The notes under the pieces: model-generated
Told to the model about the DNA's origin: nothing
Databases searched by the model: none
Seen by the model: the letters and a program-made list of their open reading frames with translations, nothing else
Shown here: piece after piece, positions 14,196 to 31,556 of the stretch
Numbering within the stretch: position 1 is the first letter of the stretch
Layout: the number at the start of each line of letters is the position of its first letter
NCBI GenBank assembly: GCA_028382965.1
Contig: JAOEUK010000003.1
Coordinates: 62,001 to 126,000, forward strand
DNA length: 64,000 bases
Source of the DNA: Candidatus Puniceispirillum sp.
GTDB taxonomy: Bacteria; Pseudomonadota; Alphaproteobacteria; Puniceispirillales; Puniceispirillaceae
Direction: 5' to 3'
Program-made: the position numbers and the translations under genes

Positions 14196-14681
14196 CTATT
14201 CTGTGTTATGCAGTATTGCAGAATCCACAATTGCTAAGTCAGCCGGCCGCTTTGCCATACCTTTTACGGTTATATTGCCAGCACTCTCAAATATCAGTGT
14301 GATTTCAAAAATATTATTTGCATAAAGTGGTGCTTTCAGGCTCATCAACATTACGTGATAACCACCAGGTTTGAGATCAACCGTTTCACCAGCTGGGATT
14401 TCTATGCCATCAATAACCTGACGCATTTTCATCACGCCGTTACTAATTTTCATTTCATGCAATTCAGTTTTATGAGCAAGGTCGCTGGTTACGTCTAGTA
14501 AATGGTCTGCCACTTCTCCATTGTTTTTAATAGATAAGTAAGCTCCACTGCTGAGCAAACCCTCAACAGTTGCACGAAATTGCAGTGGGCCAAGCATAAG
14601 GTCTCCAGCTAAAACTGGATTACCTAAAAGAATAATTAATGCAAAAAAAGCACCTAAATGGCGCCGATTTGAAAAGATCAT
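14196..14681 (-). CDS. Periplasmic copper chaperone of the PCuAC family
   Basis: A secreted 161-residue protein with a signal peptide (charged MIFSNRRH, hydrophobic LGAFFALIILLGNPVLA, cleavage likely after the Ala-Gly region). The family metal-binding pattern is visible: a His and Met pair in ELHEM, a Met in GVMKMRQV, and the His and Met in GGYHVMLM. PCuAC proteins deliver Cu(I) to the CuA centre of cytochrome oxidase together with Sco proteins. No sco gene is adjacent; the gene follows an FMN dehydrogenase gene by 37 bp on the same strand. Confidence 0.88.
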   Translation of the reverse strand: MIFSNRRHLGAFFALIILLGNPVLAGDLMLGPLQFRATVEGLLSSGAYLSIKNNGEVADHLLDVTSDLAHKTELHEMKISNGVMKMRQVIDGIEIPAGETVDLKPGGYHVMLMSLKAPLYANNIFEITLIFESAGNITVKGMAKRPADLAIVDSAILHNTE

Positions 14682-14718
14682 CAGATCACACCTTTTGCAG
14701 TTAAACTTAAAATGACGA

Positions 14719-15876
14719 TTAAAAACCAGTACTCCTAATCTTCTTTACTTCATCAATATTTTTCAAGCCAAGTTGTGCCATCACATCACACACCTCTTCC
14801 AGTAAAATTGTTACAGCATGCTCACCACCCTTCTTGCCAAGTGCTGCAACAGCATACATAAAGCCTCGGCCAATCAACGCGAAGTCTGCTCCAGCCGCTA
14901 GTGCACGCACAACATCAAGACCGGACATAATGCCACTGTCAACGATTAGAGGCACTCCATCGCCAACAGCCTCACGAATAGATGATAACTGTGCCAAAGG
15001 AGAAGGTGCAGCATCAAGCTGACGCCCACCATGGTTGGAGACAACTATCCCATTGATGCCAAGCGTTACAGCACGCGCCGCATCTTGCCCATGGAGCAAA
15101 CCTTTTAGATAAATGTCACCATCCCACTGCGCTCGAATTTCAGACAAATAATCCCAATCAAGTGATCCATTTAACTGGTCACCGATGAACTTTGTAATAC
15201 CCATTGTTCCATTTTTTTTGGCATAGGGTTCCATATTACGGAACCGGGCACCACCATTAAAAAGAGTTCGCACAGCCCACTCTGGGCGAAGCAAGCTTTG
15301 CCAAATAACACGTGATGAAAAGGCTGAATTACCTCGGCTGCCAAGCGGCGCTCCAGCTATACGCATTCGTTCACGCCGACTTGGAGATGGAACATCAGCA
15401 GTTACTAGCAGTGTACTGTAACCGCAGCCCTTAGCCCGCCGAAGCAAATCCCGCATCAACTCCCGGTCTTTTGGCGCATAAAGCTGGAACCAAGCCATCT
15501 CACCTGCCGACCTAGATACCATTTCAATGGATTCACCAGCCACAGTGCTCAGTGTATACGGGAAGCCATATTTTTTAGCTGCACAACCTATAATTGACTC
15601 TGCGCCCGGCCAGATTAAAGACGAAAGACCAATAGGTGCTGCTCCAAATGGAGCTTTGAATGTTTTTGATCCCAACTTCGTTGTCAAATCTGGATTTATC
15701 CGTCCACGCATGAATTTTGGTGTCAGTTCAATGCCATCCAAAAAAGTACGATTTCCATCTTTAGCATGGTCATGCCCCGTCCCAGAATCCAAATAAGCAT
15801 ATACAAATTTAGGGATACGTTTTGATGCTGGTTTTTTTAAATCAGATAACCGAGGGTATTTATTCATCAAATTCAT
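14719..15876 (-). CDS. FMN-dependent alpha-hydroxyacid dehydrogenase (second copy)
   Basis: A 385-residue member of the LldD/glycolate oxidase/mandelate dehydrogenase family, distinct from the copies at 8169 and 35880. Conserved elements: RIPKFVYAYLDSGTGHD with the Tyr, APFGAAPIGLSSLIWPGAE, WFQLYAPKDRELM, TLLVTADVPSPSRRERM, the Lys in IYLKGLLHGQDA, VSNHGGRQLDAAPS and the phosphate loop IVDSGIMSGLDVVRALAAG. The insert between the barrel strands contains FRNMEPYAKKNG. Substrate cannot be assigned: lactate, glycolate, mandelate and other 2-hydroxyacids are all possible. A second ATG three codons in is an alternative start. Confidence 0.85.
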   Translation of the reverse strand: MNLMNKYPRLSDLKKPASKRIPKFVYAYLDSGTGHDHAKDGNRTFLDGIELTPKFMRGRINPDLTTKLGSKTFKAPFGAAPIGLSSLIWPGAESIIGCAAKKYGFPYTLSTVAGESIEMVSRSAGEMAWFQLYAPKDRELMRDLLRRAKGCGYSTLLVTADVPSPSRRERMRIAGAPLGSRGNSAFSSRVIWQSLLRPEWAVRTLFNGGARFRNMEPYAKKNGTMGITKFIGDQLNGSLDWDYLSEIRAQWDGDIYLKGLLHGQDAARAVTLGINGIVVSNHGGRQLDAAPSPLAQLSSIREAVGDGVPLIVDSGIMSGLDVVRALAAGADFALIGRGFMYAVAALGKKGGEHAVTILLEEVCDVMAQLGLKNIDEVKKIRSTGF

Positions 15877-17068: not shown

Positions 17069-18523
17069 ATGATGTTAAATCACAAAAAAAATTTTATTGC
17101 AGGCAGTTGGTGCGCCGGACATTCCAATATTGAAAACATTAATCCATCTGAGGTAAATGACGTCATTGGTTACTTCGCGCAAGCAAACAATTCGCAGCTC
17201 GAAAGTGCCATAGATTCAGCTAAAACTGCTCAAAAAAAATGGAACTCAACCAACCTTGAAGCTCGCCAAACAATCTTGATGAACATTGGCAATGAATTAA
17301 TAGAGCGTCGAATCGAATTAGGCACTTTGCTGAGCCGTGAAGAGGGCAAACCGCTTGCCGAAGGTGTTGGTGAAATTTATCGCGCGGGTCAGTTCTTCAC
17401 CTACTATGCCGCAGAGGTTCTCCGTCAAATTGGAGATACAGCTGACAGTGTGCGGGACGGCGTCGAGATTGATGTGAGACGCGAGCCTGTTGGCATTGTG
17501 GCAATCATCAGCCCTTGGAATTTTCCAACTGCCACGGCTGTGTGGAAAATTGCTCCCGCTTTAGCTTTTGGCAATGCGGTCATTTGGAAACCAGCTAATC
17601 TGGTTCCAGCTTCAGCGGTTGCCTTAACCGAAATTATTGCCCGCCAGGACATACCTCAAGGTTTATTCAATCTAGTCATGGGTTCAGGGAGCACCATAGG
17701 CCAACAGCTTGCTGAGAGCCCAAGCATCAATGCTATCAGTTTTACTGGCTCCCTTGACGTTGGCAAAAAAATTGCTGTTGCCGCTGTTGCCAACCTGACA
17801 AAAATTCAAATGGAAATGGGCTCAAAGAATGCCTTAGCCATTATGGATGATGCTGATCTTGACCTTGCTGTAGCAACCGCGCTTGGTGGTGCCTTTGGCG
17901 GCACAGGCCAAAAATGCACAGCATCATCACGGCTGGTTGTACACCAAGCAATCCATGACGAGTTTATTGATCAGCTTGTTATTGCCGCATCAGCAATGAA
18001 AGTTGGACACGCGCTTGAAGACGGGACCCAAATTGGCCCTGTGGTCAGCGCTGAACAATTAGCAGAAAACGTACGATGGATAAAAACAGCGAAAGAGGAA
18101 GGTGGAGAAATTCTTTGCGGTGGCAAACAGGTCACACGTGACCATGATGGCTACTACATGACCCCTGCTGTAGTTGCTGGCACAAAAAATTATTGGCGGA
18201 TAAATAGAGAGGAAATGTTTGCACCCATCGCCTGCGTTATCAAAGTCGGCTCTTACGACGAGGCACTGGATGTTGTAAACGATACAAATTTTGGCCTGAC
18301 TTCAGGAATTATTACCCGCTCACTTGCCCGAGCCACACATTTCCGCCGCAATGTCCAAACTGGGGTTGTGACCATCAATCTTCCAACCGCCGGTACTGAT
18401 TATCATGTTCCATTTGGAGGACGTGGAAATAGCTCGTATGGTTCTCGTGAACAGGGCCGTTACGCTGAAGAGTTTTATACCGTTGTAAAAACCAGCTATA
18501 TCGCCGCTGGTACACCGGACTAA
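17069..18523 (+). CDS. NAD(P)-dependent aldehyde dehydrogenase
   Basis: A 484-residue aldehyde dehydrogenase oxidising an aldehyde to its acid. The family blocks are clear: IISPWNFPTATAVWKIAPAL, the Lys-containing VIWKPANLVPAS, FTGSLDVGKKIA, the general-base Glu in QMEMGSKNALA, and the catalytic Cys in FGGTGQKCTASSRLV. MFAPIACV and FGGRGNSSYGSREQG come near the C-terminus. The pattern GGTGQKCTA resembles 2-oxoglutarate-semialdehyde and related dehydrogenases, but the substrate is not fixed. It is first of four plus-strand genes; the next gene starts 4 bp after its stop, indicating an operon with an M19 dipeptidase and two poorly known proteins. Confidence 0.88.
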   Translation: MMLNHKKNFIAGSWCAGHSNIENINPSEVNDVIGYFAQANNSQLESAIDSAKTAQKKWNSTNLEARQTILMNIGNELIERRIELGTLLSREEGKPLAEGVGEIYRAGQFFTYYAAEVLRQIGDTADSVRDGVEIDVRREPVGIVAIISPWNFPTATAVWKIAPALAFGNAVIWKPANLVPASAVALTEIIARQDIPQGLFNLVMGSGSTIGQQLAESPSINAISFTGSLDVGKKIAVAAVANLTKIQMEMGSKNALAIMDDADLDLAVATALGGAFGGTGQKCTASSRLVVHQAIHDEFIDQLVIAASAMKVGHALEDGTQIGPVVSAEQLAENVRWIKTAKEEGGEILCGGKQVTRDHDGYYMTPAVVAGTKNYWRINREEMFAPIACVIKVGSYDEALDVVNDTNFGLTSGIITRSLARATHFRRNVQTGVVTINLPTAGTDYHVPFGGRGNSSYGSREQGRYAEEFYTVVKTSYIAAGTPD

Positions 18524-18527
18524 TCTT

Positions 18528-19517
18528 ATGCACCTGATTGATAACCTTCAATATGCCAACTGGTCAGAAAAAATCTTTAAACAAATGCGTGAGGGTGGCG
18601 TTGACGCGGTACATGTAACCATTGCCTATCATGAAATGTTTCGTGAAGCTGTCGCCAATATCAAACAATGGAACCGCTGGTTTGAGCGCTACCCCGATCT
18701 CATTTTTCATGGCACCACCGGTGAAGATGTACGACGCGCAAAATGCGAAGGCAAAACTGCTATCTTTTTTGGCTTTCAAAACCCCTCACCAATCGAAGAT
18801 GATATAGGACTTATTGAAATCTGCTACATGCTCGGCGTACGCTTTATGCAACTGACCTATAACAATCAATCACTTTTAGCCACAGGCTGTTACGAAGAAG
18901 AAGACAGTGGCGTCACCCGCATGGGGAAGCAAGTAATTAAAGAAATGAACCGTGTTGGTATGATTATTGATATGAGTCATTCATCAGAACGGTCGACTCT
19001 AGATGCAATAGAGATTTCCCAACGTCCAATTGCCATAACTCACGCTAACCCCTATTTTTGGCATCCAGCGAAACGCAATAAGTCTGACGCAATATTGCAC
19101 GCCCTTGGCCAGTCTGGTGGCATATTGGGGTTTTCTCTTTATCCACATCATTTGAAAAATAAATCCGACTGCAGCTTAGAAAGCTTTTGCGAAATGATTG
19201 CCCGCACAGCTGACTTAATGGGTATTGACAATATTGGCATCGGATCCGATCTTTGTCAGGATCAGCCCGACAGCATTGTTGAATGGATGCGTGTTGGCAG
19301 ATGGACAAAAGATATGGATTATGGCGAGGGTTCAGCAAAGAATGCAGGGTTTCCGGCAATGCCAAGCTGGTTCAAAGATAATCGGCACTTTGATGCAATT
19401 GCTAAAGGTCTGGAAAAAAAGGGTTTTTTACAAAAAGAAATAAGTGCTGTTATGGGTGAAAATTGGCTGCGGTTTTATGATGAAAATTTTGGCCACAAAC
19501 ATCTGAAGGACTTTTAA
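18528..19517 (+). CDS. Membrane dipeptidase (peptidase family M19) homologue
   Basis: A 329-residue amidohydrolase-fold protein of the renal dipeptidase family, normally a binuclear zinc dipeptidase. Visible elements: LIDNLQYANW at the N-terminus where relatives carry the first metal-binding HxD, GFQNPSPIEDDIGLIEICYMLGVR, LTYNNQSLLATGC, IIDMSHSSERSTLDAI with a metal His, PIAITHANPYF with another, and IGIGSDLCQD. The first HxD pair appears replaced (LIDNLQY), so the metal site may be incomplete or altered. There is no signal peptide, so it is probably cytosolic. It lies tightly in an operon after an aldehyde dehydrogenase; relatives of this kind often accompany small amine or amino-acid catabolism. 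Confidence 0.82.
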   Translation: MHLIDNLQYANWSEKIFKQMREGGVDAVHVTIAYHEMFREAVANIKQWNRWFERYPDLIFHGTTGEDVRRAKCEGKTAIFFGFQNPSPIEDDIGLIEICYMLGVRFMQLTYNNQSLLATGCYEEEDSGVTRMGKQVIKEMNRVGMIIDMSHSSERSTLDAIEISQRPIAITHANPYFWHPAKRNKSDAILHALGQSGGILGFSLYPHHLKNKSDCSLESFCEMIARTADLMGIDNIGIGSDLCQDQPDSIVEWMRVGRWTKDMDYGEGSAKNAGFPAMPSWFKDNRHFDAIAKGLEKKGFLQKEISAVMGENWLRFYDENFGHKHLKDF

Positions 19518-19547
19518 TCGCAATTAGGTATTAGAGTGGTTTGATAA

Positions 19548-21305
19548 ATGAAAAAACCAGATATGACAGATACTGCTGCTGCCCACTCAGGCATTATACC
19601 TATTGTTCCTCTTCGTCCAGCTAAACAGGTGATGAGATTAGCCCGAATGGGATCATTTCATCAAAGCCGTCTCAGCTTTATGCGAGTCCTGCTACGCCGT
19701 TTAAAAGCCGAAAAGTGGCGATTTAAGAGAAGTCGTTGGGACATCGACGCGGATGGGGTTGGGGTTGCAACTTATGAAGCGATTGGCCCAAAAAGAAGCT
19801 ATACGTTGGTTGCCTTTGCGCATGATCTACCAGCTGAGAAACGTTCCGATCGTGTGATTGCTGAAGCATGGGATGCCACATTCACACTTCATGACGGAGT
19901 CATTAGCAATGCCAATATTGAACGTCTGAAAAGAAACGTGCCTCTCCAAGAAGCTGGCCGAATTTTGGATGATGAATTTGTCCTATCACGGGCGAATCGT
20001 TCAATTCGATTATTTGACTATGTCCTTAACTGTCTTGCTGCAGGCACCCAGCCTGACCTAGCAAAAATCGAACCAGTTGGTTACTTAATGCGGACAACAG
20101 CTGTATATGGGTCAGGAAAATTTGGTGCTGCTGACCGTGACACCTGGGCAGACAGGCCCGAATTTTCTGGCTCATTCCAGCCTGAACTCCTTGCTGTTTG
20201 GCTGCTGAGATCTTTTACCATTGATCTTGTTGAGCATATGGCGGCAGTAAATTCACCACATAATGCGGTCAAACTGGACTCACATATCCGTCGTCGTATC
20301 GGTGTTGGCAATTCAACTGGTCTTGGCATGGCGCCATTCCTGGTTAATCATCCGTCGTTAATTCACTCATGGATCAACGCGCGTGAGACAGCGCTGGCCC
20401 GAGTACGGGCGCTCAAAAAAACCGATACGACTGGCTTATCTAGATTTGTAGAATTGATTGCCAAAGCCAATAAAAATGCCAAAAAATGGACAACAGATAG
20501 CCTCGATCAAAGAGCCAAAATTCAAAAATTGCGCGATGATATCGTCCAGCTTAACGCCTTTTTGCACACCCTTAACTCTGACATAGTCAAACCTTGGGAT
20601 ACAATCTATCGCTGGGGCGAAACTAATCTTAGCCTTGAAGGACAGGAACAGCTTGTGTCCCTATTGCTTGAAGATCACGGCCCACTGATCGACAACCTGG
20701 CAACTACCATGAAAGCTGATGAGGAGGCACATTTCCGCATTGATGGATCAATGCATTTATTCCAGCTTCATAAAATTATGAATAATGTCTATGACTGGAC
20801 GCATGATATAGATTATGAAAAAAATGATGCCCAAGCTCGCGTTTGGTATGTTTCAGAAGAAAAACTTGAACCACGTCTTGGCGAGCGGTTTGAGGAGCCA
20901 ATTGAGCCTTATGAGCAGCCATTAGCACCAGGACGCGATGCAGTTTTAGCGATTAAAGCCCTTGATCAATGGATGAATGCAAAAACCAATTCTGAAAATG
21001 ATACAGTTGCGATGTTTCTGTTAGGACACCCCGAACATCGGCATATTGTGCGTCGCGCGCAGACCGTGTTCGTACTGCCCTATGCCGAAATCCAAGACAA
21101 TACAATTTCTGCTACAATGCAACCAATTGATTTACTGCGATGCAAATTATCGTTTTTTGGAGCGTCAAAGTTTGACCCGCGTTCAGATCGGTGGTTACGC
21201 ATTACTATGTATCAAGGCGCACCGTTTCCAGACGAATTAACAGCCATGGACCCAGATGCTTTGGCCTACCCACCACTTATTTCAAACGGCCAGCTGGAAC
21301 ATTAA
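19548..21305 (+). CDS. Uncharacterised 585-residue protein in dipeptidase/DUF3726 operon
   Basis: I do not recognise this protein. It is soluble in appearance, without signal peptide or membrane segment. The N-terminal part is basic and Arg-rich (about residues 20-70). A middle part contains RTTAVYGSGKFGAADRDTW, LLRSFTIDLVEHMAAV and GVGNSTGLGMAPFLVNHPSLIHSW, which look like conserved active-site or ligand loops. A helical stretch around 290-340 with coiled-coil tendency (DQRAKIQKLRDDIVQLNAFL) follows, and a C-terminal domain has LRCKLSFFGASKFDPRSDRW. The gene starts 30 bp after the dipeptidase and ends 5 bp before a DUF3726-like gene. That spacing suggests the products work together in one pathway. 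No function is proposed. Confidence 0.8.
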   Translation: MKKPDMTDTAAAHSGIIPIVPLRPAKQVMRLARMGSFHQSRLSFMRVLLRRLKAEKWRFKRSRWDIDADGVGVATYEAIGPKRSYTLVAFAHDLPAEKRSDRVIAEAWDATFTLHDGVISNANIERLKRNVPLQEAGRILDDEFVLSRANRSIRLFDYVLNCLAAGTQPDLAKIEPVGYLMRTTAVYGSGKFGAADRDTWADRPEFSGSFQPELLAVWLLRSFTIDLVEHMAAVNSPHNAVKLDSHIRRRIGVGNSTGLGMAPFLVNHPSLIHSWINARETALARVRALKKTDTTGLSRFVELIAKANKNAKKWTTDSLDQRAKIQKLRDDIVQLNAFLHTLNSDIVKPWDTIYRWGETNLSLEGQEQLVSLLLEDHGPLIDNLATTMKADEEAHFRIDGSMHLFQLHKIMNNVYDWTHDIDYEKNDAQARVWYVSEEKLEPRLGERFEEPIEPYEQPLAPGRDAVLAIKALDQWMNAKTNSENDTVAMFLLGHPEHRHIVRRAQTVFVLPYAEIQDNTISATMQPIDLLRCKLSFFGASKFDPRSDRWLRITMYQGAPFPDELTAMDPDALAYPPLISNGQLEH

Positions 21306-21310
21306 AGATT

Positions 21311-21937
21311 ATGACATGGTCACTTGGTGAAATTAGTGCACTAGCAACGAAGGCGGCCCGCGGAAGCGGAATGGAGTGGGGGCTTGCAGAGGAGGCTGGT
21401 TATGCCGTGAAATGGCTCCAACGGCGTGAGTTACCAGGCGTTGCAGCCTTATGCAGATATTTAAGCTGGCGTGAAAGTGGTACTTTGTCAGCTTGGCCAG
21501 ATAAAACAGGTGAAAGAGGCCATTACTGCCCCATTGCTATCGGTGCTGCTTATGGTGATGGGGCATTTGGTGACGAAGTTCAACTCCAACGTATTAGGCT
21601 GCCACTGTTGCTGATCCCATTTGTGGCACTTCGTGCCTTTGACAAGTCCATCACCGTATCAATGGGCAATGCCGTTTTTTGTCTTACACGAGACGGCTTT
21701 GGACACTCGACAAATAGCACAGCCATTCTAGTCAACTCATCAGTATGTAATATCACCACAAAGCATGAAGCTCTACCGCTCATTACCAGCATCAATGATA
21801 TCAGATGGCCTCGTGTTCCAGAAACCACAACAGACTGCATAAAGGTTTTGAACAAATTTGCTAAAAACACTTATGCCCCAGCAACTGAAACATCACGACT
21901 TTCCGGCGCAGGTGCTGGCTTGAATGATGGCGACTAA
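21311..21937 (+). CDS. DUF3726-like protein, function unknown
   Basis: A 208-residue protein beginning MTWSLGEISALATKAARGSG, MEWGLAEEAGYAVKWL and RRELPGVAALCRYL, which I recognise from memory as the DUF3726 type. It has no signal peptide. Later parts (HYCPIAIGAAYGDGAFG, IRLPLLLIPFVALRAFDKS) are mildly hydrophobic but not clear membrane helices. The ATG at 21311 is 5 bp after the stop of the 585-residue protein. An open frame extends upstream into that gene, but the residues there are out of frame with it and not real. Role unknown; it is the last gene of the plus-strand operon and converges with an aldehyde dehydrogenase gene. Confidence 0.75.
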   Translation: MTWSLGEISALATKAARGSGMEWGLAEEAGYAVKWLQRRELPGVAALCRYLSWRESGTLSAWPDKTGERGHYCPIAIGAAYGDGAFGDEVQLQRIRLPLLLIPFVALRAFDKSITVSMGNAVFCLTRDGFGHSTNSTAILVNSSVCNITTKHEALPLITSINDIRWPRVPETTTDCIKVLNKFAKNTYAPATETSRLSGAGAGLNDGD

Positions 21938-21958: not shown

Positions 21959-23395
21959 TTAGGCGATGCCACTGATGGTTTTTATCTCAAGAAACTCTTC
22001 TATACCCCAAAATCCACCTTCACGGCCTACACCTGACTGTTTATAGCCACCAAAAGGACTGCCAGGGGCACGTGAAGCACCGTTAACCTGAATCATGCCA
22101 GCCCGTAATTTAGCTGCAACCCGTCGCGCACGACCCATATCACCAGTCTGAATATACGCTGCCAATCCATAAGGTGTGTCATTGGCAAGTGAAATCCCCT
22201 CCTCTTCGTTATCAAAAGGCATCAAGGCTAGAACCGGACCAAAAATTTCCTCGCGAACAATCGTCATATCCTTTTTTGCATCAGCAAAAACTGTTGGCTT
22301 TACAAACCAGCCTCGGTTTATTCCTTCAGGGCGCCCAACTCCACCCGCAACTAACCTTGCACCCTCGTCAATGCCAGACTGGATCATCCGTTGTACCTTC
22401 TCAAACTGTGCTTCTGACACCAAAGGGCCAATGTGTTTTCCTGCATTTGAAGGCAAATCAACCTTTGTCGCATCTGCTTTTGCAGCGGCAATTTCGACAG
22501 CCTGATCATAGATACTGCGCTGAACTATCATCCGTGTGGCGGCGTTACAGGACTGTCCAGTGTTGTTGAAACAGAAAGCCGCGCCCATACGAACTGCCTT
22601 TTCAACATCACAATCATCAAACACCAAATTTGGTGATTTACCACCAAGCTCTAGTGACACAGTTTTTACTGTGTCTGCCGCTGCTTTACTGATCAAAATT
22701 CCTGCTCGAGTTGATCCAGTAAATGACACAACGTCAACATCAGGATGCGATGACAAAAACGTGCCAACACCAACACCATCACCATTGACCATGTTAAAAA
22801 CACCAGCTGGAAATCCAGCTTCATGTACCATCTCGGTAAATAAAATACTGGACATTGGTGCAATCTCAGATGGTTTAAGCACCATTGTGCATCCTGCCGC
22901 CAACGCCGCACCAACTTTAAGAACAACTTGATTCATTGGCCAGTTCCATGGCGTGATTAGAGCAGCAACACCGGCGGCCTCAAACACAATATCCTGACCT
23001 TCAATACCATCACGCAGTGGTCTCTGGAACTTCATCGCGCCAAGGGCACGAATAAAGGATTTTAAATGACCAACCCCTGCTCCTGCTTGATCACGAAGCG
23101 CCATGTCAATTGGCGCGCCCATTTCAGTTGATATGGTAGCGCCCATCTCATCATTACGTTTAATATAGATATCAAGAAGCTTTTGCAGATATGAAGAACG
23201 TTCATCTGAGCTTGTCACCGACCATGCTGGAAAAGCCCCTTTAGCCGCAGCAATCGCCCCCTCAGCATCTTGTGTACCACCAAGCGTGATTGTGGCAAAC
23301 GCACACTCGGTTGCGGGGTTCAGCACAGGAAAAATTTGTCCATCCAATGATTGCACCCACGATCCATTTATATAGAATTTAGTTTTATCCAACAT
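21959..23395 (-). CDS. Aldehyde dehydrogenase family protein
   Basis: A 478-residue NAD(P)-dependent aldehyde dehydrogenase. Motifs: FYINGSWV at the start, LITPWNWPMNQVVLKVG, MVLKPSEIAPMS, FTGSTRAGILIS, the general base in SLELGGKSPNLV, the catalytic Cys in FNNTGQSCNAATRM, EEIFGPVLALMPF and SPFGGYKQSGVGREGG. Substrate is unknown; position last in the amine/guanidino transporter cluster suggests the aldehyde made by the aminotransferase two genes upstream. The ATG at 23395 is preferred to a TTG at 23407. About 150 bp separate it from the EamA gene upstream, so a separate promoter is possible. Confidence 0.87.
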   Translation of the reverse strand: MLDKTKFYINGSWVQSLDGQIFPVLNPATECAFATITLGGTQDAEGAIAAAKGAFPAWSVTSSDERSSYLQKLLDIYIKRNDEMGATISTEMGAPIDMALRDQAGAGVGHLKSFIRALGAMKFQRPLRDGIEGQDIVFEAAGVAALITPWNWPMNQVVLKVGAALAAGCTMVLKPSEIAPMSSILFTEMVHEAGFPAGVFNMVNGDGVGVGTFLSSHPDVDVVSFTGSTRAGILISKAAADTVKTVSLELGGKSPNLVFDDCDVEKAVRMGAAFCFNNTGQSCNAATRMIVQRSIYDQAVEIAAAKADATKVDLPSNAGKHIGPLVSEAQFEKVQRMIQSGIDEGARLVAGGVGRPEGINRGWFVKPTVFADAKKDMTIVREEIFGPVLALMPFDNEEEGISLANDTPYGLAAYIQTGDMGRARRVAAKLRAGMIQVNGASRAPGSPFGGYKQSGVGREGGFWGIEEFLEIKTISGIA

Positions 23396-23541
23396 ACCAA
23401 TATCCAAAATTCATTAACAAGCTCACCGGCACAGCTATAAAAGACACAAAATAATGGTAACTATAGCTGGCAGATACTGAGCCGCAAAAATGCACATGAG
23501 AAATCAAAACTGTCAAGTTTCTGTTTGGCCTATATTACGCA

Positions 23542-24486
23542 CTATTTTACTTGCGTCTTTATCTTGCCGTACTCAGCCAGGAAAATGCCACTAATAACCA
23601 TCATCAGAGCTATTAAATGATAAATTTTTAACGACTCCGACAAAATCATCATTGCAAGAAATGCTGCAAAAACCGGAACTAAATTGACATATAAACCAGC
23701 ACGATTGGCGCCGGTTAACGCCACTCCACGAATGAAAAAAGTTTGAGATAGAATTGATGGACAAACAGCGCAATAGATAAGAATCAGAACACCCTTAAAA
23801 CTTGGCAAAACAAGGTCACCACTAGTATATTCAACAACAGTGAAAAAGCTACATGACAAAAATGCAAAAAACGCAAAAAAACACAATAGTATGACGGGTG
23901 GCATGTCCATTCTGCGTGCCAAGGAGACAGTGTAAACAGCGTAACAAAGGCAGGCCACAACCATCAACAAGTCACCACCATTGAAATTTAATGCCGTAAT
24001 TGTCGCAAGGCTGCCCGCGCTGACAAGCACCAAAACCCCCATCAATGAGGAACAGAGTCCCAAAAACTGTAGCCAGCCAATTGGAGTACGAAAAATAAGC
24101 CAGCCAAACAGCATGACACAAGCAGGAATAATCCCCTGAATGATTCCAAGGTTAACAGCACTGGTATATTGCGCCGCATAAACAATGAAAAGCGTAAACC
24201 CAGCCAATCCGATGCCACCCATGCCAAAAAACCAGCGCCAATGTTGCCTAACTAAAGGCAAGTAAAGCGGCAAAGTTTTATGAAAAATAGTCACCAAAAT
24301 TAAAAACGATCCGAGCCAACGCAATTCCATCAATAAAACTGGAGAAATCTCACCAACAGAAATTCGTAAAGCCACAGTATGACCGGCCCACATCAAGGAG
24401 GCCATGGCTAGAACTGCGTGGGCACTGTTCCAGAAACGATCAAAAAATGACACATTTATACTCCGGCTAAAAGTCCATAAATTCAT
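23542..24486 (-). CDS. EamA/DMT-family permease
   Basis: A 314-residue inner-membrane protein of the drug/metabolite transporter superfamily with two EamA repeats and about ten membrane helices. Typical elements: SLMWAGHTVALRISVGEISPVL with the first helix, LRWLGSFLILV, AAQYTSAVNLGIIQGIIPACV closing the first repeat, and the second repeat from GGDLLMVVACLCYAVYTVSL to NLVPVFAAFLAMMILSE. About 20 residues precede the first helix. The start codon overlaps the aminotransferase stop (TAATG), so the two are co-translated. It may move a substrate or by-product of the pathway; the transported compound is not known. Confidence 0.86.
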   Translation of the reverse strand: MNLWTFSRSINVSFFDRFWNSAHAVLAMASLMWAGHTVALRISVGEISPVLLMELRWLGSFLILVTIFHKTLPLYLPLVRQHWRWFFGMGGIGLAGFTLFIVYAAQYTSAVNLGIIQGIIPACVMLFGWLIFRTPIGWLQFLGLCSSLMGVLVLVSAGSLATITALNFNGGDLLMVVACLCYAVYTVSLARRMDMPPVILLCFFAFFAFLSCSFFTVVEYTSGDLVLPSFKGVLILIYCAVCPSILSQTFFIRGVALTGANRAGLYVNLVPVFAAFLAMMILSESLKIYHLIALMMVISGIFLAEYGKIKTQVK

Positions 24487-25928
24487 TAGCTTAGCTTTGC
24501 GGCAATAGTCATCACATCACCCAACGCTGCCTCAATGCGATCAAACATATCATCAACTTCAACTTTTGAAATGATCAGTGGGGGACAAAAACCAATAATA
24601 TCACCAGGTAAGGCACGCAAAATAACACCATGTTCCTGGATAATTGCAACTGCCTGTGCTGCAATCTTATGTGCTGGATCAAATTTTTTATGTCCATCGG
24701 TGTTAGTGGAAAATTCAATTGCACCAATAAGACCAATGGCGCGCGCATTTCCAATAAAGTCAAATTTAGTAAGTTTTTCAACTCTCCGCTTGAATTGCGG
24801 GGAAATACACCTGACATGGCCAATAATGTCACGTTCTTGCATCAACTGCTGGGCCCGCAGAGCCACCGCTGCGCAAACAGGATGAGCTGAATACGTGTAT
24901 CCGTGACCTAAAATACCCAAATGACCAGCTTGCTGAGCAATTGGCGCATAAACCTTTTCAGACAACATTACAGCCGAAATTGGCAAATAGGCAGATGACA
25001 GAGCTTTGGCACAGGTTAACATGTCAGGACGAACATCCATTGTCTCTGATCCCCACATATTACCAGTACGACCAAATCCACAAATGACTTCATCTGCAAC
25101 AAGCAGCACGTCATATTTCTTTAGAACTGCCCGGATTTTTTCAAAATAAGTTCGAGGCGGAATAATCACACCACCAGCGCCCATCACTGGTTCAGCAAAA
25201 AAGGCAGCAACACTCTCTGGCCCTTCTTCCAAAATCAGCTCTTCAAGATCAATTGCGCAGCGGTTAGCAAAAGATTCCTCACTCTCATTAGGCAGTGCTT
25301 CATTATAAAAATCTGGCGCACCAGTATGCTTAACAAAATCTAATGGCAAGCCAAATCCATCTTGTGCATAGGCAAGCGCAGTCATACTAGCAGCAACTAT
25401 TGTCACGCCGTGATAGCCTTTTTTCCGGCTTATAATTTTTCGTTTTTCAGGTCGGCCCAGGGCAGCATTGTAATACCAAATCATTTTCACTGCAGTATCA
25501 TTTGCTTCAGAACCTGATGCTGCAAAAAATACTTTGCTCATTACGCTATCACCACCAGCAGGTGGCGCATTAGCAATCAACAATTCAGCAAGGTCAATGG
25601 CTGGTCCAACCGTTTTTCCAGCAAAACTGTGATAAAATGGAAGCTTGCGAAATTGTTCAATCGCAGCGTCAATTAATTCAGACTCAGAAAAGCCCAGAGA
25701 TGTACACCAAAGGCCGCTCATCCCTTCGTAAAACCGCTTACCATTTTCATCAACAACAAAGACACCATGGCCTTCAGCGATCACATGTGGACCACTTGTC
25801 TCTAATGCCAATGGATTAGTGTAAGGGTGCATATGAAAAGCAATATCACGACTGGCAGAAGAATTTCCACCTAGAGATTTCCTCAGGGCGTTGTTGCTAT
25901 TTTTTGCCATGTTTGCGTCCCAATCCAT
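24486..25928 (-). CDS. Class III aminotransferase (omega-amine:pyruvate type)
   Basis: A PLP fold-type I, subgroup II aminotransferase of 480 residues, in the group including putrescine-pyruvate (SpuC), taurine-pyruvate and beta-alanine-pyruvate aminotransferases. Features: HMHPYTNPLAL, GLWCTSLGFSESELIDAA, the PLP phosphate site FFAASGSEANDTAVKM, SRKKGYHGVTIVAASM, AEPVMGAGGVIIPP, DEVICGFGRTGNMW and the PLP Lys in TCAKALSSAYLPISAV, then HGYTYSAHPVCAAVAL. The YH and WC residues favour omega-amines with pyruvate as acceptor. Together with the PotADBC-like transporter and agmatinase, an amine such as putrescine or a relative is the likely substrate. GTG at 25931 and ATG at 25910 are alternative starts. 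Confidence 0.85.
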   Translation of the reverse strand: MDWDANMAKNSNNALRKSLGGNSSASRDIAFHMHPYTNPLALETSGPHVIAEGHGVFVVDENGKRFYEGMSGLWCTSLGFSESELIDAAIEQFRKLPFYHSFAGKTVGPAIDLAELLIANAPPAGGDSVMSKVFFAASGSEANDTAVKMIWYYNAALGRPEKRKIISRKKGYHGVTIVAASMTALAYAQDGFGLPLDFVKHTGAPDFYNEALPNESEESFANRCAIDLEELILEEGPESVAAFFAEPVMGAGGVIIPPRTYFEKIRAVLKKYDVLLVADEVICGFGRTGNMWGSETMDVRPDMLTCAKALSSAYLPISAVMLSEKVYAPIAQQAGHLGILGHGYTYSAHPVCAAVALRAQQLMQERDIIGHVRCISPQFKRRVEKLTKFDFIGNARAIGLIGAIEFSTNTDGHKKFDPAHKIAAQAVAIIQEHGVILRALPGDIIGFCPPLIISKVEVDDMFDRIEAALGDVMTIAAKLS

Positions 25929-25976
25929 CACTTAAAAAGAAACCAGCTTTAATTGCTCTATAATTTATGGTGCACG

Positions 25977-26714
25977 TCATACATGTTGCCCACCGTTAAC
26001 ATGAATCTCAGAACCATTCAGATATTTTGCCTGCTCACTACACAGAAAAAAGATTGTATCAGCCACTTCATCTGGACTACCAAACCGACCAAGTGGTATT
26101 TGTGGCAAAATGGTTTCTTCACTGTCAGGTGACAGAATACCGGTCTCAATTTCACCCGGCGCAATGGCATTGACGCGAATACCAAGCTTGCCAAAATCTG
26201 AGGCCATTTCTCGGGTTAATGCACCGAGCGCTGCTTTTGACGTTGAATAAGCCGATCCGGCAAACTCATGCACCCTACTACCAGCAATTGATGTCACATT
26301 TACAATCGACCCCCTACCTGACTGCAAAGCTGGGCAAAGACTCTGAGCCAACATTACTGGAGCAAATACATTTACCTGATAAACCGCCTGCCACAAGTCC
26401 AACGATGTTTCATGACAATCAAGACGACTTCCATCCTGCTTTTTCGGCGAGATTCCTGCGTTATTAACAAGCGCATGGAGAGGCCTTCCACCAAGACGAG
26501 CCAACAGTTCAGAGACGCCACGTTTCACATCATCAGGTGACGACAAGTCAATTTGCAAATGATCTTCCGGGCCAGCTTCCCAAGGGCAGTTTTCAGGAAA
26601 ACCATGCCTCGAACACGTAATTACCCGCCAACCAGAAACAGAAAAGCGTTTGACAGTAGCGTGCCCGATTCCACGACTTGCTCCAGTCAAAACTAGTATC
26701 TTACGATCGTCCAT
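25977..26714 (-). CDS. Short-chain dehydrogenase/reductase
   Basis: A 245-residue classical SDR. It shows the Rossmann motif TGASRGIG, LVNNAGIS, NVTSIAGSR with the catalytic Ser, and YSTSKAALG with the Tyr and Lys, followed by VRVNAIAPGEIETGI-like and GSEIHVNGGQHV ends. SDRs of this type reduce or oxidise a keto/hydroxy group with NAD(P)H; no substrate can be read from the sequence. The ATG at 26714 has GGGAAA just upstream and matches the family N-terminus; an open extension to 26807 is hydrophobic and unlike the family. It is between the transporter and the aminotransferase genes on the same strand. Confidence 0.86.
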   Translation of the reverse strand: MDDRKILVLTGASRGIGHATVKRFSVSGWRVITCSRHGFPENCPWEAGPEDHLQIDLSSPDDVKRGVSELLARLGGRPLHALVNNAGISPKKQDGSRLDCHETSLDLWQAVYQVNVFAPVMLAQSLCPALQSGRGSIVNVTSIAGSRVHEFAGSAYSTSKAALGALTREMASDFGKLGIRVNAIAPGEIETGILSPDSEETILPQIPLGRFGSPDEVADTIFFLCSEQAKYLNGSEIHVNGGQHV

Positions 26715-26822
26715 ATGTTTTCCCAATCTGGCTCTCAATACACTTGCTAATGCAAAAAAAGACAGCATAAGCCAAGGCAGAGTGACCTTAAAAAGGGTGA
26801 AGGTCAATTGAATGAGTTTTAA

Positions 26823-27737
26823 TCAAGTATTGCTGATGCCGCGCAATCGTTCGGACCTTCGGCGCAGTAATTCCAATATTGTTAGCAGAATAATTGACAA
26901 AATAACCAATAGCGTTGCAACAGCCAAAATAGTTGGGCTGATTTGCTCTCGAATGCCTGACCACATTTGACGTGGAATAGTTCTTTGCTCAGGGCTTGCC
27001 AAAAACAATACTGCAACAACCTCATCAAACGACGTGATAAAAGCAAACAGTCCACCAGCAATTACACCTGGAACAATCAAAGGCATTTGAACTTTATAAA
27101 AAGTCGTCAACGCGCCTGCCCCAAGGGATTGGGAAGCACGAACCAGTGACTTATCGAAGCCAACAAGGGTCGCTGTAACAGTAATAATAACAAAAGGTGT
27201 TCCCAGCACAGCATGCGCCATGATGACCCCAAGGTAAGTCTGACTTAGATGCACCTGTGAATAGAAATAAAACATTCCAGCTGCCGTAATAATCAAAGGC
27301 ACGATCATTGGCGAAATCAGAATTGACATAATTAGGCGTCGATAAGGCATTTCAGACCGAGCTAACCCAATAGCAGCCAGTGTACCAAGCGCCGTTGCCA
27401 GCAACGTAGCACAAATCCCTATGAAAAAGCTATTGCGAATAGCCCTCATCCATTGACTGTTATCCCATGTGTCAGATACCCACGCCCAGCTAAAAGCCTC
27501 ATCTGGCGCCATCATACCATTTCGTAAAATGTCTCCATACCATCGCAATGAATAAGCTTCTGCATCAAAGTTCAGCATACCACTGGTGAAGCTAAAGTAA
27601 GGCTCAACGTTGAACGACAAGGGCAATACAACCAAAATTGGCAGAATAAGAAACAAGAAAATCAGCCCACAAATACCACGATAGATATAATGCCAAATAT
27701 ACTCACCAGTACTGGTATAGGGGGGAAGTTTAGCCAT
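26823..27737 (-). CDS. potC: ABC transporter permease, spermidine/putrescine (PotC) type
   Basis: A 304-residue inner-membrane permease of the polyamine/Fe3+ class. About six hydrophobic segments: first helix ICGLIFLFLILPILVVLPLS, then after a periplasmic loop (SFNVEPYFSFTSG to MRAIRNSFFIGI) the core helices. The EAA loop that contacts the ATPase reads VRASQSLGAGALTTFYKVQMPLI, split over two stretches. The stop of potB is 7 bp upstream, so the two permeases are co-translated. Substrate inferred from family and from neighbouring agmatinase and aminotransferase genes: a polyamine or related cationic compound. Confidence 0.85.
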   Translation of the reverse strand: MAKLPPYTSTGEYIWHYIYRGICGLIFLFLILPILVVLPLSFNVEPYFSFTSGMLNFDAEAYSLRWYGDILRNGMMAPDEAFSWAWVSDTWDNSQWMRAIRNSFFIGICATLLATALGTLAAIGLARSEMPYRRLIMSILISPMIVPLIITAAGMFYFYSQVHLSQTYLGVIMAHAVLGTPFVIITVTATLVGFDKSLVRASQSLGAGALTTFYKVQMPLIVPGVIAGGLFAFITSFDEVVAVLFLASPEQRTIPRQMWSGIREQISPTILAVATLLVILSIILLTILELLRRRSERLRGISNT

Positions 27738-27744
27738 ACCTAAA

Positions 27745-29007
27745 TCACCCTAACTTCATATTGTCGATACCAACAACCCTGTCATAAGCCCAGTAAAGCA
27801 AAAGCACACCTGACAAAAGAATACCACCAAGCGCAGCCGCCAATGACCAGTTGAGGGACTTCTGCATGTGATAGGCGATCATGTTTGAAATCAATTGCCC
27901 ATCTTGCCCACCAACAAGCGCTGGGGTTATATAATATCCAATTGCGAGAATAAAAACCAGCAATCCTCCTGCACCAACGCCCGGAATTGTTTGCGGCATG
28001 TATACTTTAATAAAAGCTCTTGTGGGCGTTGCACCTAGAGAACGCGCTGCTCGCATATAAGATGGCGGGATAGTTTTCATAACTGAATAAAGTGGCAAAA
28101 TCATAAAAGGCAGCAAAATATGCGTCATAGCAATGATTGTGCCTGTCATATTATAAATTAATGAAAATCGAGAGTCGTCAGCAGTAATGCCAAATGTTAC
28201 TAAAAGATCATTAATTACACCTTGAGATTGCAAAATGGCAATCCACGCAGTTGTCCTTACCAGTAGTGACGTCCAGAAAGGCAATAGAACCATGATCATA
28301 AGAAGATTTGAAGTACGTAACGGTAGCGTTGCCAGCAGATAGGCTACCGGATAACCAAGCAAAAGACACAAACCCATTACCGATGCAGAAATCATAAACG
28401 TGCGCCAGAACAATGTTACATAGATCTGTCTGTTTTCATTCTGCTGCACAAAACCTTGGTCTACGGTATAGCGGCCGTCTAAAGCAGTCGCATAGAAAGC
28501 TGGGGTCAAGTTTTGCGAAGTAAGCTTCATGGCTCGCCAAACCTCAATCTTTGCCCATTTTTTATTAACTTTGATTACACTTTCCTTAAATGGTGGCGTC
28601 AGTTTTTTAGCTTTGCGGGCGGTTGATGTGAACAAAGAGCGCGTTCCAGGATATTCTTGGTTAACACGCGTTGCAATCCGGCCAATGGTCCGTTCTTTTT
28701 TTGCAACAACTAAATCAGCTACAAGAGCTGCAAAAAGAGCCTCATCGGGCTCAGTTAAACCATCCCAAGAAGTCAATTGCTCAGTCAAGTTAGGCGTGTA
28801 TTTAGAAAAACGTTCATTGTAAACTCCTTGCCACATCAGAGCAAAAATAGGGATTACAAAACTAACCATCACAAAAGCGAATAGTGGGACAACCAAGGAT
28901 ACCGCGCGAACCTTACTACGAAACAAGGCTTGGGCTAATTTTTTCTTTAGCGGGGTACCGTCAGCTGCGGTAATTGGCTCTAACGGGGCTATATGACTAT
29001 CTGCCAT
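27745..29007 (-). CDS. potB: ABC transporter permease, PotB type, with enlarged loop
   Basis: A 420-residue permease, much longer than E. coli PotB (about 275). After a polar start and the first helix (VSLVVPLFAFVMVSFVIPIFALMW in two pieces), about 120-130 extra residues (about 60-190) form a charged, probably periplasmic region with helical runs rich in Lys and Glu. The normal permease core then begins at IYVTLFWRTFMISASVMG and continues through GYPVAYLLATLPL and the EAA loop MRAARSLGATPTRAFIKVYM. A hairpin terminator precedes the gene, between potD and potB. The enlarged loop could contact the binding protein. Confidence 0.83.
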   Translation of the reverse strand: MADSHIAPLEPITAADGTPLKKKLAQALFRSKVRAVSLVVPLFAFVMVSFVIPIFALMWQGVYNERFSKYTPNLTEQLTSWDGLTEPDEALFAALVADLVVAKKERTIGRIATRVNQEYPGTRSLFTSTARKAKKLTPPFKESVIKVNKKWAKIEVWRAMKLTSQNLTPAFYATALDGRYTVDQGFVQQNENRQIYVTLFWRTFMISASVMGLCLLLGYPVAYLLATLPLRTSNLLMIMVLLPFWTSLLVRTTAWIAILQSQGVINDLLVTFGITADDSRFSLIYNMTGTIIAMTHILLPFMILPLYSVMKTIPPSYMRAARSLGATPTRAFIKVYMPQTIPGVGAGGLLVFILAIGYYITPALVGGQDGQLISNMIAYHMQKSLNWSLAAALGGILLSGVLLLYWAYDRVVGIDNMKLG

Positions 29008-29039
29008 GATGAATTTTGGTCTCTGCTAAATTATTTTGA

Positions 29040-29077
29040 TAAAAAATAACGGTCATATGGGATACTCCATATGACCG
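29040..29077 (-). terminator. Intra-operon hairpin terminator/attenuator after potD
   Basis: Perfect 11-bp stem (CGGTCATATGG with CCATATGACCG, loop of 6) followed on the minus strand by a T-rich run (TTATTTTTTATC). It lies 14 bp after the potD stop and 42 bp before potB, so it probably reduces read-through and leaves more binding-protein mRNA than permease mRNA. Confidence 0.8.
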
Positions 29078-29091
29078 CTTATCTCGGTGTT

Positions 29092-30183
29092 TTACTTTGC
29101 AAGCCAAGCGTTAAAGCGTTCGTTTAGCTGGTCAGCATTATCTGCCCAGAATTCATAGTCATTCTGGAGAGCATTCTTAAAATTTCCCGGAGCTGTTGGC
29201 ATATGACTTGCCATTTGAATTGTATCATCAGAATGGTAAGTTCCAATGCGAGCAACTGCAGATGCGCGGGCTGGCCCGTATGGAATCCATGATGCCTGTG
29301 CTGCCAACTGTTCAGTCGCAGTTGAGAAAGCTAGAAAATCAAGTGCCGCTTCTTTGTTTTTAGAACCTTTTGGAATGACCCAAAGGTCGAGGTCATAGAT
29401 TTGACCATCCCAGACCATTTCAAACTTCTGGCCTTCAGATGCAACAGCGTTAAATATACGTCCGTTCCAAGCTGTTGTGAAAATAACTTCACCATCAGCA
29501 AGAAGCTGTGGAGGCTGAGCTCCAGCTTCCCACCAGATAACATCATCTTTAATAGTGTCAAGCTTTGCAAATGCGCGTGCAATGCCTTCTTCTGTGCTTA
29601 GAACATTATAAACTTCACTTACAGGTACACCGTCTGCAATAAGCGCAAACTCCATTGTTACTTTTGGTGACTTTCGCATACCGCGTTTTCCTGGGTACGC
29701 TTGTGTATTAAAGAAATCTGCCATTGATTTTGGCGCGTTCCAATTACGTGTCTGGCTTTTGTCATAGACGTAAACAGATGACCATACAATGTTCGCAACA
29801 GCGCAGTCATGCAATGTTCCAGGCAGAAAGTCTTCAACTGCCGGTGTGCCATCTGGTGATGCAGGCAACTTTGAATGATCTATTGTTTCTAAGAGGCCTT
29901 CATCACATGCGCGGATTGCGTCCGACAATTCAACGTCGACAATATCCCATGACACATTTCCCGACTCCACCTGTGCTTTAATTTCAGCGATACCCCCGCC
30001 ATAATCTTCAGATACGATAGCCTTACCAGACTTTGCCATCCATGGCTTGTGATAGGCTTCAACCTGTGATTTTGTATAAGCACCACCCCATGAAACGACT
30101 GTTAAGTCAGCCGCCATTGATGCGCTGCTCACAAAAACAGATGCACCTGCGATTGCAATAAGCTTTTTTGTTAATCCAGACAT
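29092..30183 (-). CDS. potD: ABC transporter periplasmic substrate-binding protein, PotD/PotF type
   Basis: A 363-residue secreted binding protein. Signal peptide: MSGLTKKLIAIAGASVFVSSASMAA, processed before DLTVVSWGGAYTKSQVEA, the standard opening of polyamine-family type II binding proteins. Later conserved parts are WDIVDVELSDAIRACDEGLLE, ANIVWSSVYVYDKS, MRKSPKVTMEFALIADGV and TAWNGRIFNAV. Large acidic and aromatic content agrees with a cationic ligand. The ATG at 30183 has GGGAG at good spacing; a GTG at 30192 is less likely. It follows potA by 110 bp and is followed by a strong hairpin. Confidence 0.86.
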   Translation of the reverse strand: MSGLTKKLIAIAGASVFVSSASMAADLTVVSWGGAYTKSQVEAYHKPWMAKSGKAIVSEDYGGGIAEIKAQVESGNVSWDIVDVELSDAIRACDEGLLETIDHSKLPASPDGTPAVEDFLPGTLHDCAVANIVWSSVYVYDKSQTRNWNAPKSMADFFNTQAYPGKRGMRKSPKVTMEFALIADGVPVSEVYNVLSTEEGIARAFAKLDTIKDDVIWWEAGAQPPQLLADGEVIFTTAWNGRIFNAVASEGQKFEMVWDGQIYDLDLWVIPKGSKNKEAALDFLAFSTATEQLAAQASWIPYGPARASAVARIGTYHSDDTIQMASHMPTAPGNFKNALQNDYEFWADNADQLNERFNAWLAK

Positions 30184-30293
30184 TATGTCCACTCCCTTTA
30201 AGTGTTTTTACGTTTTAAGAATTATATAACTCTTTTACGTTAGCCAACAACCTACCCATTAGGCCACTTGGCTTCTCTTGACTGTTCAAGCAG

Positions 30294-31397: not shown

Positions 31398-31556
31398 ATT
31401 TTCCTACCTAAGCTTGCATTCAAAGTCCATAATTTTATCAAACTGATAAATCTACGAAATAAAATTACTACGAAATGTTGAATGGAATGAATAAATAAAA
31501 CATTTTAATCCAAAGTTTGCAACAGTGAGTAGGTATGAAATTGAAAATCTACAAAT

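Follow-up and report, generated by a model that had tools for sequence, protein, structure and literature searches.

The ALDH-M19-585-DUF3726 operon

The window analyzed here is a stretch of 64,000 nucleotides from Candidatus Puniceispirillum sp. (assembly GCA_028382965.1, contig JAOEUK010000003.1, positions 62,001 to 126,000), and the element in question is a run of four plus-strand genes that probably serve the breakdown of homarine, a plentiful algal betaine. The first gene (17069..18523) encodes an aldehyde dehydrogenase (ALDH) of 484 residues (PF00171, 502 bits), and the second (18528..19517) encodes a 329-residue protein with the Peptidase_M19 fold (PF01244, 264.6 bits against a cut-off of 26), here called the M19 protein. 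The third gene (19548..21305) encodes a 585-residue protein without a match in Pfam, NCBIfam, PDB sequences or fold searches, and the fourth (21311..21937) encodes a 208-residue protein of the DUF3726 family (PF12525, 58 bits against a cut-off of 22.1). The intergenic gaps are 4, 30, and 5 bp, and the four genes form one operon. Both the coordinates and the gaps are as claimed in the original prediction, which had been made from the nucleotide sequence, and the Pfam assignments likewise agree with its description of two enzymes of known fold next to two proteins of unknown function.

The open reading frame caller places the start of the DUF3726 gene at GTG 21191 (248 residues); the family alignment favors ATG 21311, because M1 is nearly invariant in its 40 rows. 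For the ALDH, the nearest NCBIfam model is alpha-ketoglutaric semialdehyde dehydrogenase (NF042993), with a score of 475.5 bits, below the cut-off of 770. No cut-off was reached among the NCBIfam models shown (25 of 45), and the ALDH was therefore rejected as a guide to the substrate.

Distribution and linkage of the 585-residue and DUF3726 proteins

The 585-residue and DUF3726 proteins are an obligate pair. Profiles of both families were run on 385 alphaproteobacterial genomes sampled evenly across the class, and the 585 profile matched 53 genomes and the DUF3726 profile 47, all 47 of which are among the 53. No DUF3726 match without a 585 match was found in the 385 genomes (profile match at E <= 0.001), and the hypergeometric probability of this co-occurrence is 3e-54 when the relatedness of the genomes is ignored. 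The DUF3726 gene is downstream of the 585 gene, on the same strand and within 423 bp, in 46 of the 47 carriers; the exception is a genome (G148) in which both matches lie at contig ends. Six genomes (G117, G134, G137, G181, G395, and G430) have a 585 match and no DUF3726 match. These counts come from profile searches, as tblastn alone undercounts DUF3726 (42 of the 52 loci having at least 500 bp downstream). Additionally, in Mesorhizobium sp. 131-2-1 the two proteins are annotated as a single protein of ~814 residues (L113 9953-12397). Because of the co-occurrence, the adjacency, and this fusion, the 585-residue and DUF3726 proteins are predicted to form a physical complex. The neighborhood survey proposed with the original prediction thus found the two unknown genes together rather than apart, and co-occurrence and adjacency support its view of a catabolic pathway with these two proteins as the constant core.

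Carriers are both close to and distant from the window genome. The 585 gene is present in 51 of 61 genomes (the window genome and 60 close relatives), and the ten nearest named loci, among the best 80 of 383 matches, are 74-79% identical over the 585-residue protein; seven bear the title Candidatus Puniceispirillum or SAR116 and the other three Alphaproteobacteria only, and the window is accordingly assigned to SAR116. The survey seeded with the 585 gene consists of those best 80 of 383 matches, and the 385-genome and 55-locus counts are less biased. Across 299 genomes sampled from the phylum, the gene was found in 22, of which 8 are outside Alphaproteobacteria. Carriers also make up 18 of 60 genomes in one family of small genomes (0.8-1.6 Mb; local guanine plus cytosine fraction 0.30-0.32) that resembles SAR11 in size and AT-richness, and plasmid records gave 168 matches, chiefly from Sinorhizobium and Phaeobacter. 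Finally, a divergent clade of 585-like proteins (28-31% identity) was found in Sinorhizobium, Variovorax, and Aminobacter (L118 10001-13387, L119 9941-13437, and L120 9956-13364). The gene order there is IclR, 585-like - short Ldh_2-like protein - M19, followed in L119 and L120 by transporter genes.

Predicted folds of the two proteins

The DUF3726 protein was modeled with a predicted local distance difference test score (pLDDT) of 87.5. In a Foldseek search with this model, the top 25 rows were all entries of the type-2 malate/lactate dehydrogenase (Ldh_2) type, with E-values of 0.011-0.65 and none at or below 0.001. VIA-align gave Z-scores of 9.8-12.5 for 15 Ldh_2-type entries over 154-184 residues, and 2.4 for the next unrelated entry. 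The best match was 3uoe_A (Z 12.5, root-mean-square deviation 3.3, 174 aligned residues), which is titled merely 'dehydrogenase' and which we take to be an Ldh_2 protein. Judging from the model, DUF3726 is a cut-down Ldh_2 fold, which is a new finding; with 208 residues it is ~130 shorter than the ~335 of Ldh_2.

On the same basis, the link between DUF3726 and Ldh appears visible from the fold and would not show in sequence alone. None of 40 DUF3726 proteins matched PF02615 at E <= 1, and an alignment of the DUF3726 and Ldh sequence profiles covered the N-terminal 57 columns only (probability 8.5%, P 0.004). The short partners of the divergent 585-like proteins match PF02615 faintly, with 16.3 bits in L119 and 12.3 bits in L118 against a cut-off of 38.8; the Pfam Ldh_2 E-values of the Variovorax and Sinorhizobium partners are 0.0054 and 0.094. 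No invariant His was found in the 40 rows of the DUF3726 alignment. In the full-length Ldh of the set, H48 is retained across all 17 rows, and this conserved His of Ldh_2 is presumably catalytic. Sets that have an Ldh are thus predicted to contain this fold twice, once at full length and once in a reduced form. No paper naming the DUF3726 family was found in a literature search.

The 585-residue protein was also modeled well (pLDDT 87.3, predicted template modeling score 0.90). However, the fold search suggested for both unknown proteins in the original prediction was productive for DUF3726 and not for this one. Foldseek with the whole model against the PDB returned only noise (best E 0.02, template modeling score 0.08), and VIA-align gave a best Z of 5.8, with rows mainly on the helical stretch 282-371 and no usable match; since the whole model was searched and the PDB was the sole structure library, these results are compatible with a known fold in an individual domain. 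Similarly, PDB profile searches with two 585 alignments gave coiled-coil or partial matches only, at E-values of at least 0.19, and a Pfam scan of 50 members of the family gave no consistent match. The invariant residues in 25 diverse rows include 15 Arg, one His (H268), four Glu, and no Cys. With an Arg-rich set, a single His and no Cys, nothing in the sequence of the 585-residue protein points to a classical metal or thiol site.

The M19 protein

Close relatives of the M19 protein (at least 49% identity) are present in 50 of the 385 genomes, and 48 of these 50 also have the 585 gene (hypergeometric 7e-53, relatedness again ignored). Two genomes (G319 and G435) have a close M19 and no 585 match, and five 585 carriers (G124, G181, G347, G423, and G430) have no M19 at this identity. 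Gene constancy was counted in 55 loci from the 53 carriers within the class, and gene order was surveyed in 92 neighborhoods, many of them short. In 46 of the 55 loci, an M19 gene is within 3 kb of the 585 gene and on the same strand.

The original prediction had noted that the dipeptidase seems to lack the first metal-binding HxD motif. This was borne out, as the window protein and the family consensus both read ID-x-LQY at the N-terminus. A second position is also altered: Gln84 is invariant in 26 of 26 relatives, and the dipeptidase 5lx0 has Glu there. H151, H172, R183, and D241 are retained in alignments to 5lx0 and 2i5g. By analogy with renal dipeptidase, we take these positions to be metal ligands and the HxD and bridging Glu to define the binuclear site. 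The closest solved relative is 2i5g_A, an 'amidohydrolase' (E 2e-58), which likewise reads GFQN at the place of Gln84. Because the HxD is gone and Gln replaces the bridging Glu, the M19 protein is probably no ordinary dipeptidase, and its sequence is suggestive of an amide hydrolase of another kind.

The wider gene set

In other carriers, the four genes are part of a larger set. For instance, the annotated plasmid of Ruegeria TM1040 (585 homologue TM1040_RS02335, DUF3726 gene TM1040_RS02340) has the order LysR, ALDH - M19 - [BCCT] - 585 - DUF3726 - Ldh, with an AraC-type gene and sarcosine-oxidase-like subunits alongside; the latter resemble N-methylglutamate dehydrogenase (Mgd) and are referred to as Mgd-like. 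Phaeobacter inhibens DSM 17395 (L111) has the same gene order. Its Ldh (~14387-15485) is unannotated, and tblastn recovered it in two pieces whose frames differ; the gene may be broken or a pseudogene. In Aliiroseovarius (L122), Mgd-like subunits and divergent AraC and LysR genes are followed by ALDH - M19 - 585 - DUF3726 - Ldh - BCCT. LysR and the five enzymes ALDH-M19-585-DUF3726-Ldh occur in L122 and L115, and the window operon holds four of these five. ALDH homologues that are 54-87% identical lie upstream of M19 in many loci.

Where a transporter was identified with the set, it is of a betaine type: BCCT in L111, L112, L114, and L122, and an OpuAC ATP-binding cassette (ABC) transporter in L115 and L173. 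Aminobacter MDW-2 has a glycine-betaine ABC system after its Ldh gene, and in two AT-rich genomes, G090 and G317 (L173 and L176), the ABC genes come ahead of the set, with parts also in L256 and L258. Mgd-like alpha/beta genes, at least 66% identical to those of the Phaeobacter set, flank 9 of the 92 loci (L075, L090, L097, L102, L103, L104, L111, L112, and L122, thus including L111 itself); weaker matches, such as those in L106 and L099, were left out of this count.

SAR116 genomes do not hold the set in one place: ALDH-M19-585-DUF3726 is at one locus and the OpuAC ABC genes with Ldh are at another. No LysR, transporter or Ldh gene was found in or adjoining the window operon in the 92-locus survey. 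Elsewhere in the window genome, at G000:C36 (L178 5410-9322), the genes OpuAC - permease - ATPase - Ldh stand in an uninterrupted row. Twelve additional SAR116 loci were picked for their Ldh match, and 10 of them share this run; L250 is without it and L244 ends too early. Another locus of the window genome (G000:C3; L177) encodes Mgd-like A, B, and C subunits with 60-73% identity to those of the Phaeobacter set, and no match to the D subunit was found in the window genome.

A tree was built from 35 Ldh_2 proteins, and in it the ABC-linked Ldh of SAR116, that of the window genome (L178) included, falls in a clade (support 100/100) with the Ldh of L071, L179, L180, and L226, which adjoin DUF3726 or M19. 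Three unlinked genes are also in that clade, and the remaining 12 operon-linked Ldh genes, those of Rhodobacterales included, form a second clade (100/99). Since the operon-linked genes fall in two clades, Ldh has probably been recruited or exchanged more than once. A second type of set was observed in L179 (G021), L180 (G028), and L182 (G220), where the 585 protein is 41-46% identical to that of the window, M19 is present, no close ALDH is nearby, and Ldh or Mgd-like genes are close. G021 and G028 belong to the same family as the window genome.

Proposed function in homarine catabolism

We propose that the enzymes of the operon form the core of a pathway for betaine degradation, that the likeliest substrate is homarine (N-methylpicolinate), and that this is a SAR116 homarine operon, with a probability of about 0.7. 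The analysis establishes the gene set and its constancy, the folds of three of the proteins, and the presence in the genome of homologues of each named part, and the substrate and every reaction are predictions. Homarine is suggested by the five enzymes plus LysR, the betaine transporters, the link to Mgd-like genes, the similarity of those carriers that can be named, and enzyme classes that fit a conversion of homarine to N-methylglutamate. A homarine pathway was published by Ferrer-Gonzalez et al. in Nature Microbiology in 2026; its operon, homABCDER, reportedly occurs in Rhodobacterales, SAR11, and SAR116, and its products are reported to be N-methylglutamate and glutamate. The original prediction had called the pathway undescribed, and this does not stand if, as is very probable, that paper covers it. 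The pathway itself thus appears to be known since 2026, and the roles given here to its two central proteins are proposals. According to PMC13390433 (2026), Mgd is involved in the catabolism of homarine; for a conserved pathway it refers to a paper in Nature Microbiology. R. pomeroyi is reported to draw down homarine within hours (PMC12817926); a 2023 author correction states that homarine concentrations had been overstated.

If the substrate is homarine, then the pathway could proceed as follows. An OpuAC-type ABC transporter (homologue at G000:C36) would import the betaine, and the 585-residue and DUF3726 proteins would cleave the pyridinium ring at the C5-C6 bond, so that C5 becomes an aldehyde and the carboxylate-bearing carbon holds an N-formyl, N-methyl group. 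The 585-residue protein would be the putative catalytic subunit of this first, ring-opening step and DUF3726 its partner subunit. The ALDH would then oxidize C5, and the M19 protein, acting hydrolytically on an N-formyl or enamide intermediate, would take off the formyl group. The reductase of the Ldh_2 family whose gene adjoins the ABC genes would reduce the N-methyl imine to N-methylglutamate, which the Mgd-like N-methylglutamate dehydrogenase (G000:C3) would convert to glutamate. By carbon count, loss of ring C6 would leave homarine with the skeleton of N-methylglutamate. More tentatively, and with the odds leaning the other way, the pair may be a new kind of enzyme in marine bacteria that opens the N-methylpyridinium ring, unlike TgnA/TgnB, with DUF3726 binding the ring carboxylate or completing the active site.

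Several observations weigh against homarine as the substrate, or against a single fixed set. The ALDH, Ldh, and Mgd-like genes are less constant than the M19-585-DUF3726 core: ALDH (>50% identity) is within 9 kb in 18 of the 55 loci and is the least constant of the four, Ldh is within 9 kb in 20 of 55, and Mgd-like matches of any strength occur in 5 of 55, so that the whole set is not together in every carrier. At L055, the pair is not accompanied by an adjoining M19. NCBIfam places the adjoining heterotetramer in the sarcosine oxidase family, in which Mgd and sarcosine oxidase are not separable. The divergent clade, in the loci searched, lacks a full Ldh gene and any ALDH of more than 31% identity; the 585 family therefore need not be bound to one substrate, and this clade perhaps acts on another. 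Carriers also extend beyond the sea (Mesorhizobium, Aminobacter, Caballeronia, and others), and those from soil and plants leave room for other substrates. The gene-for-gene match to the published homarine operon is presumed. Lastly, growth of R. pomeroyi was poorer on homarine than on trigonelline in a 2021 study (PMC8269262).

Some of these points would suit a different N-methylated betaine, such as another N-methyl pyridinium or a cyclic betaine, degraded along equivalent lines, with import, opening, oxidation, hydrolysis, reduction, and demethylation in turn. The transporter types vary (BCCT, OpuAC ABC, branched-chain-type ABC, and TRAP nearby), none of the enzymes reveals a substrate specificity in its sequence, the ALDH being below the cut-off of the NCBIfam models shown (25 of 45), and some copies have genes nearby that we label MttB-like and dimethylglycine-dehydrogenase-like; soil and plant-associated carriers are also consistent with such a substrate. 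However, the five enzymes and LysR agree with the reported operon name homABCDER, and many carriers are marine Rhodobacterales, SAR116 or small AT-rich genomes. The link to Mgd-like genes, together with the role given to Mgd in PMC13390433, also argues for homarine, and a different betaine is considered unlikely, at roughly one chance in a handful.

A far less probable explanation is that the operon cooperates in polyamine or guanidino-compound breakdown with the minus-strand cluster that faces it. This cluster (21959-32513), present as described in the original prediction, encodes an ALDH, an EamA transporter, a class-III aminotransferase, a short-chain dehydrogenase/reductase, an ABC system (SBP_bac_8, TOBE_2), and an arginase-family protein. 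From these families it is probably concerned with the uptake and breakdown of a polyamine or guanidino compound. It lies tail-to-tail with the operon, 21 bp apart, and among the 17 closest loci (L031-L047) all but L042, which ends too soon to tell, have a minus-strand ALDH no more than ~1 kb beyond the end of DUF3726 (16 loci). In more distant loci the minus-strand ALDH matches are farther away, and in the surveyed Rhodobacterales and rhizobial sets this neighbor is not at the same place. On this survey of the ALDH of the cluster, a joint role was rejected, and the tie to the operon looks like local synteny of a separate cluster. On the other side of the operon, upstream, a minus-strand gene of the flavin mononucleotide-dependent alpha-hydroxy acid dehydrogenase family is present (14719-15876), for which no link was found.

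The M19 family assignment might also suggest peptide or amide scavenging by the ALDH, M19 protein, and pair with a new dipeptidase, but this is the most improbable explanation and dipeptidase function was rejected, as the HxD and bridging Glu are lost in the 26 aligned relatives and betaine transporters go with the set wherever a transporter was identified.

Implications and comparison with known systems

The homarine assignment, if correct, would tie two unnamed protein families to homarine turnover, and knowing the homarine-consuming genes would let this turnover be read from metagenomes. Surveys that demand one intact operon would miss the split SAR116 set. In addition, DUF3726 gains a predicted fold, the annotation 'membrane dipeptidase' is predicted to be misleading, and ring opening by the 585/DUF3726 pair, if true, would be new enzymology.

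In comparison to Peptidase family M19 (renal dipeptidase; 2i5g), the window protein belongs to the same Pfam family and keeps two His, the Arg, and the Asp, but is without the HxD and bridging Glu and is nearest to 2i5g. The DUF3726 model has its fold in common with the Ldh_2 family (PF02615), although DUF3726 proteins are without the conserved His and below Pfam detection. The gene set is presumed to be the same as that of the homarine pathway reportedly described by Ferrer-Gonzalez et al. in 2026. In contrast to the reported operon, the SAR116 set is split over loci and no LysR match is beside the window operon. N-methylglutamate dehydrogenase is involved in homarine catabolism according to PMC13390433. 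The trigonelline (tgn) pathway uses the TgnA/TgnB oxygenase system (PMC8269262), and no match to an oxygenase or flavoprotein family was found among the four window proteins in Pfam or NCBIfam. If the homarine reading is right, then two features of the tgn pathway in that source would be shared by the SAR116 operon: a substrate that is an N-methylpyridinium carboxylate, and ring opening as the first step.

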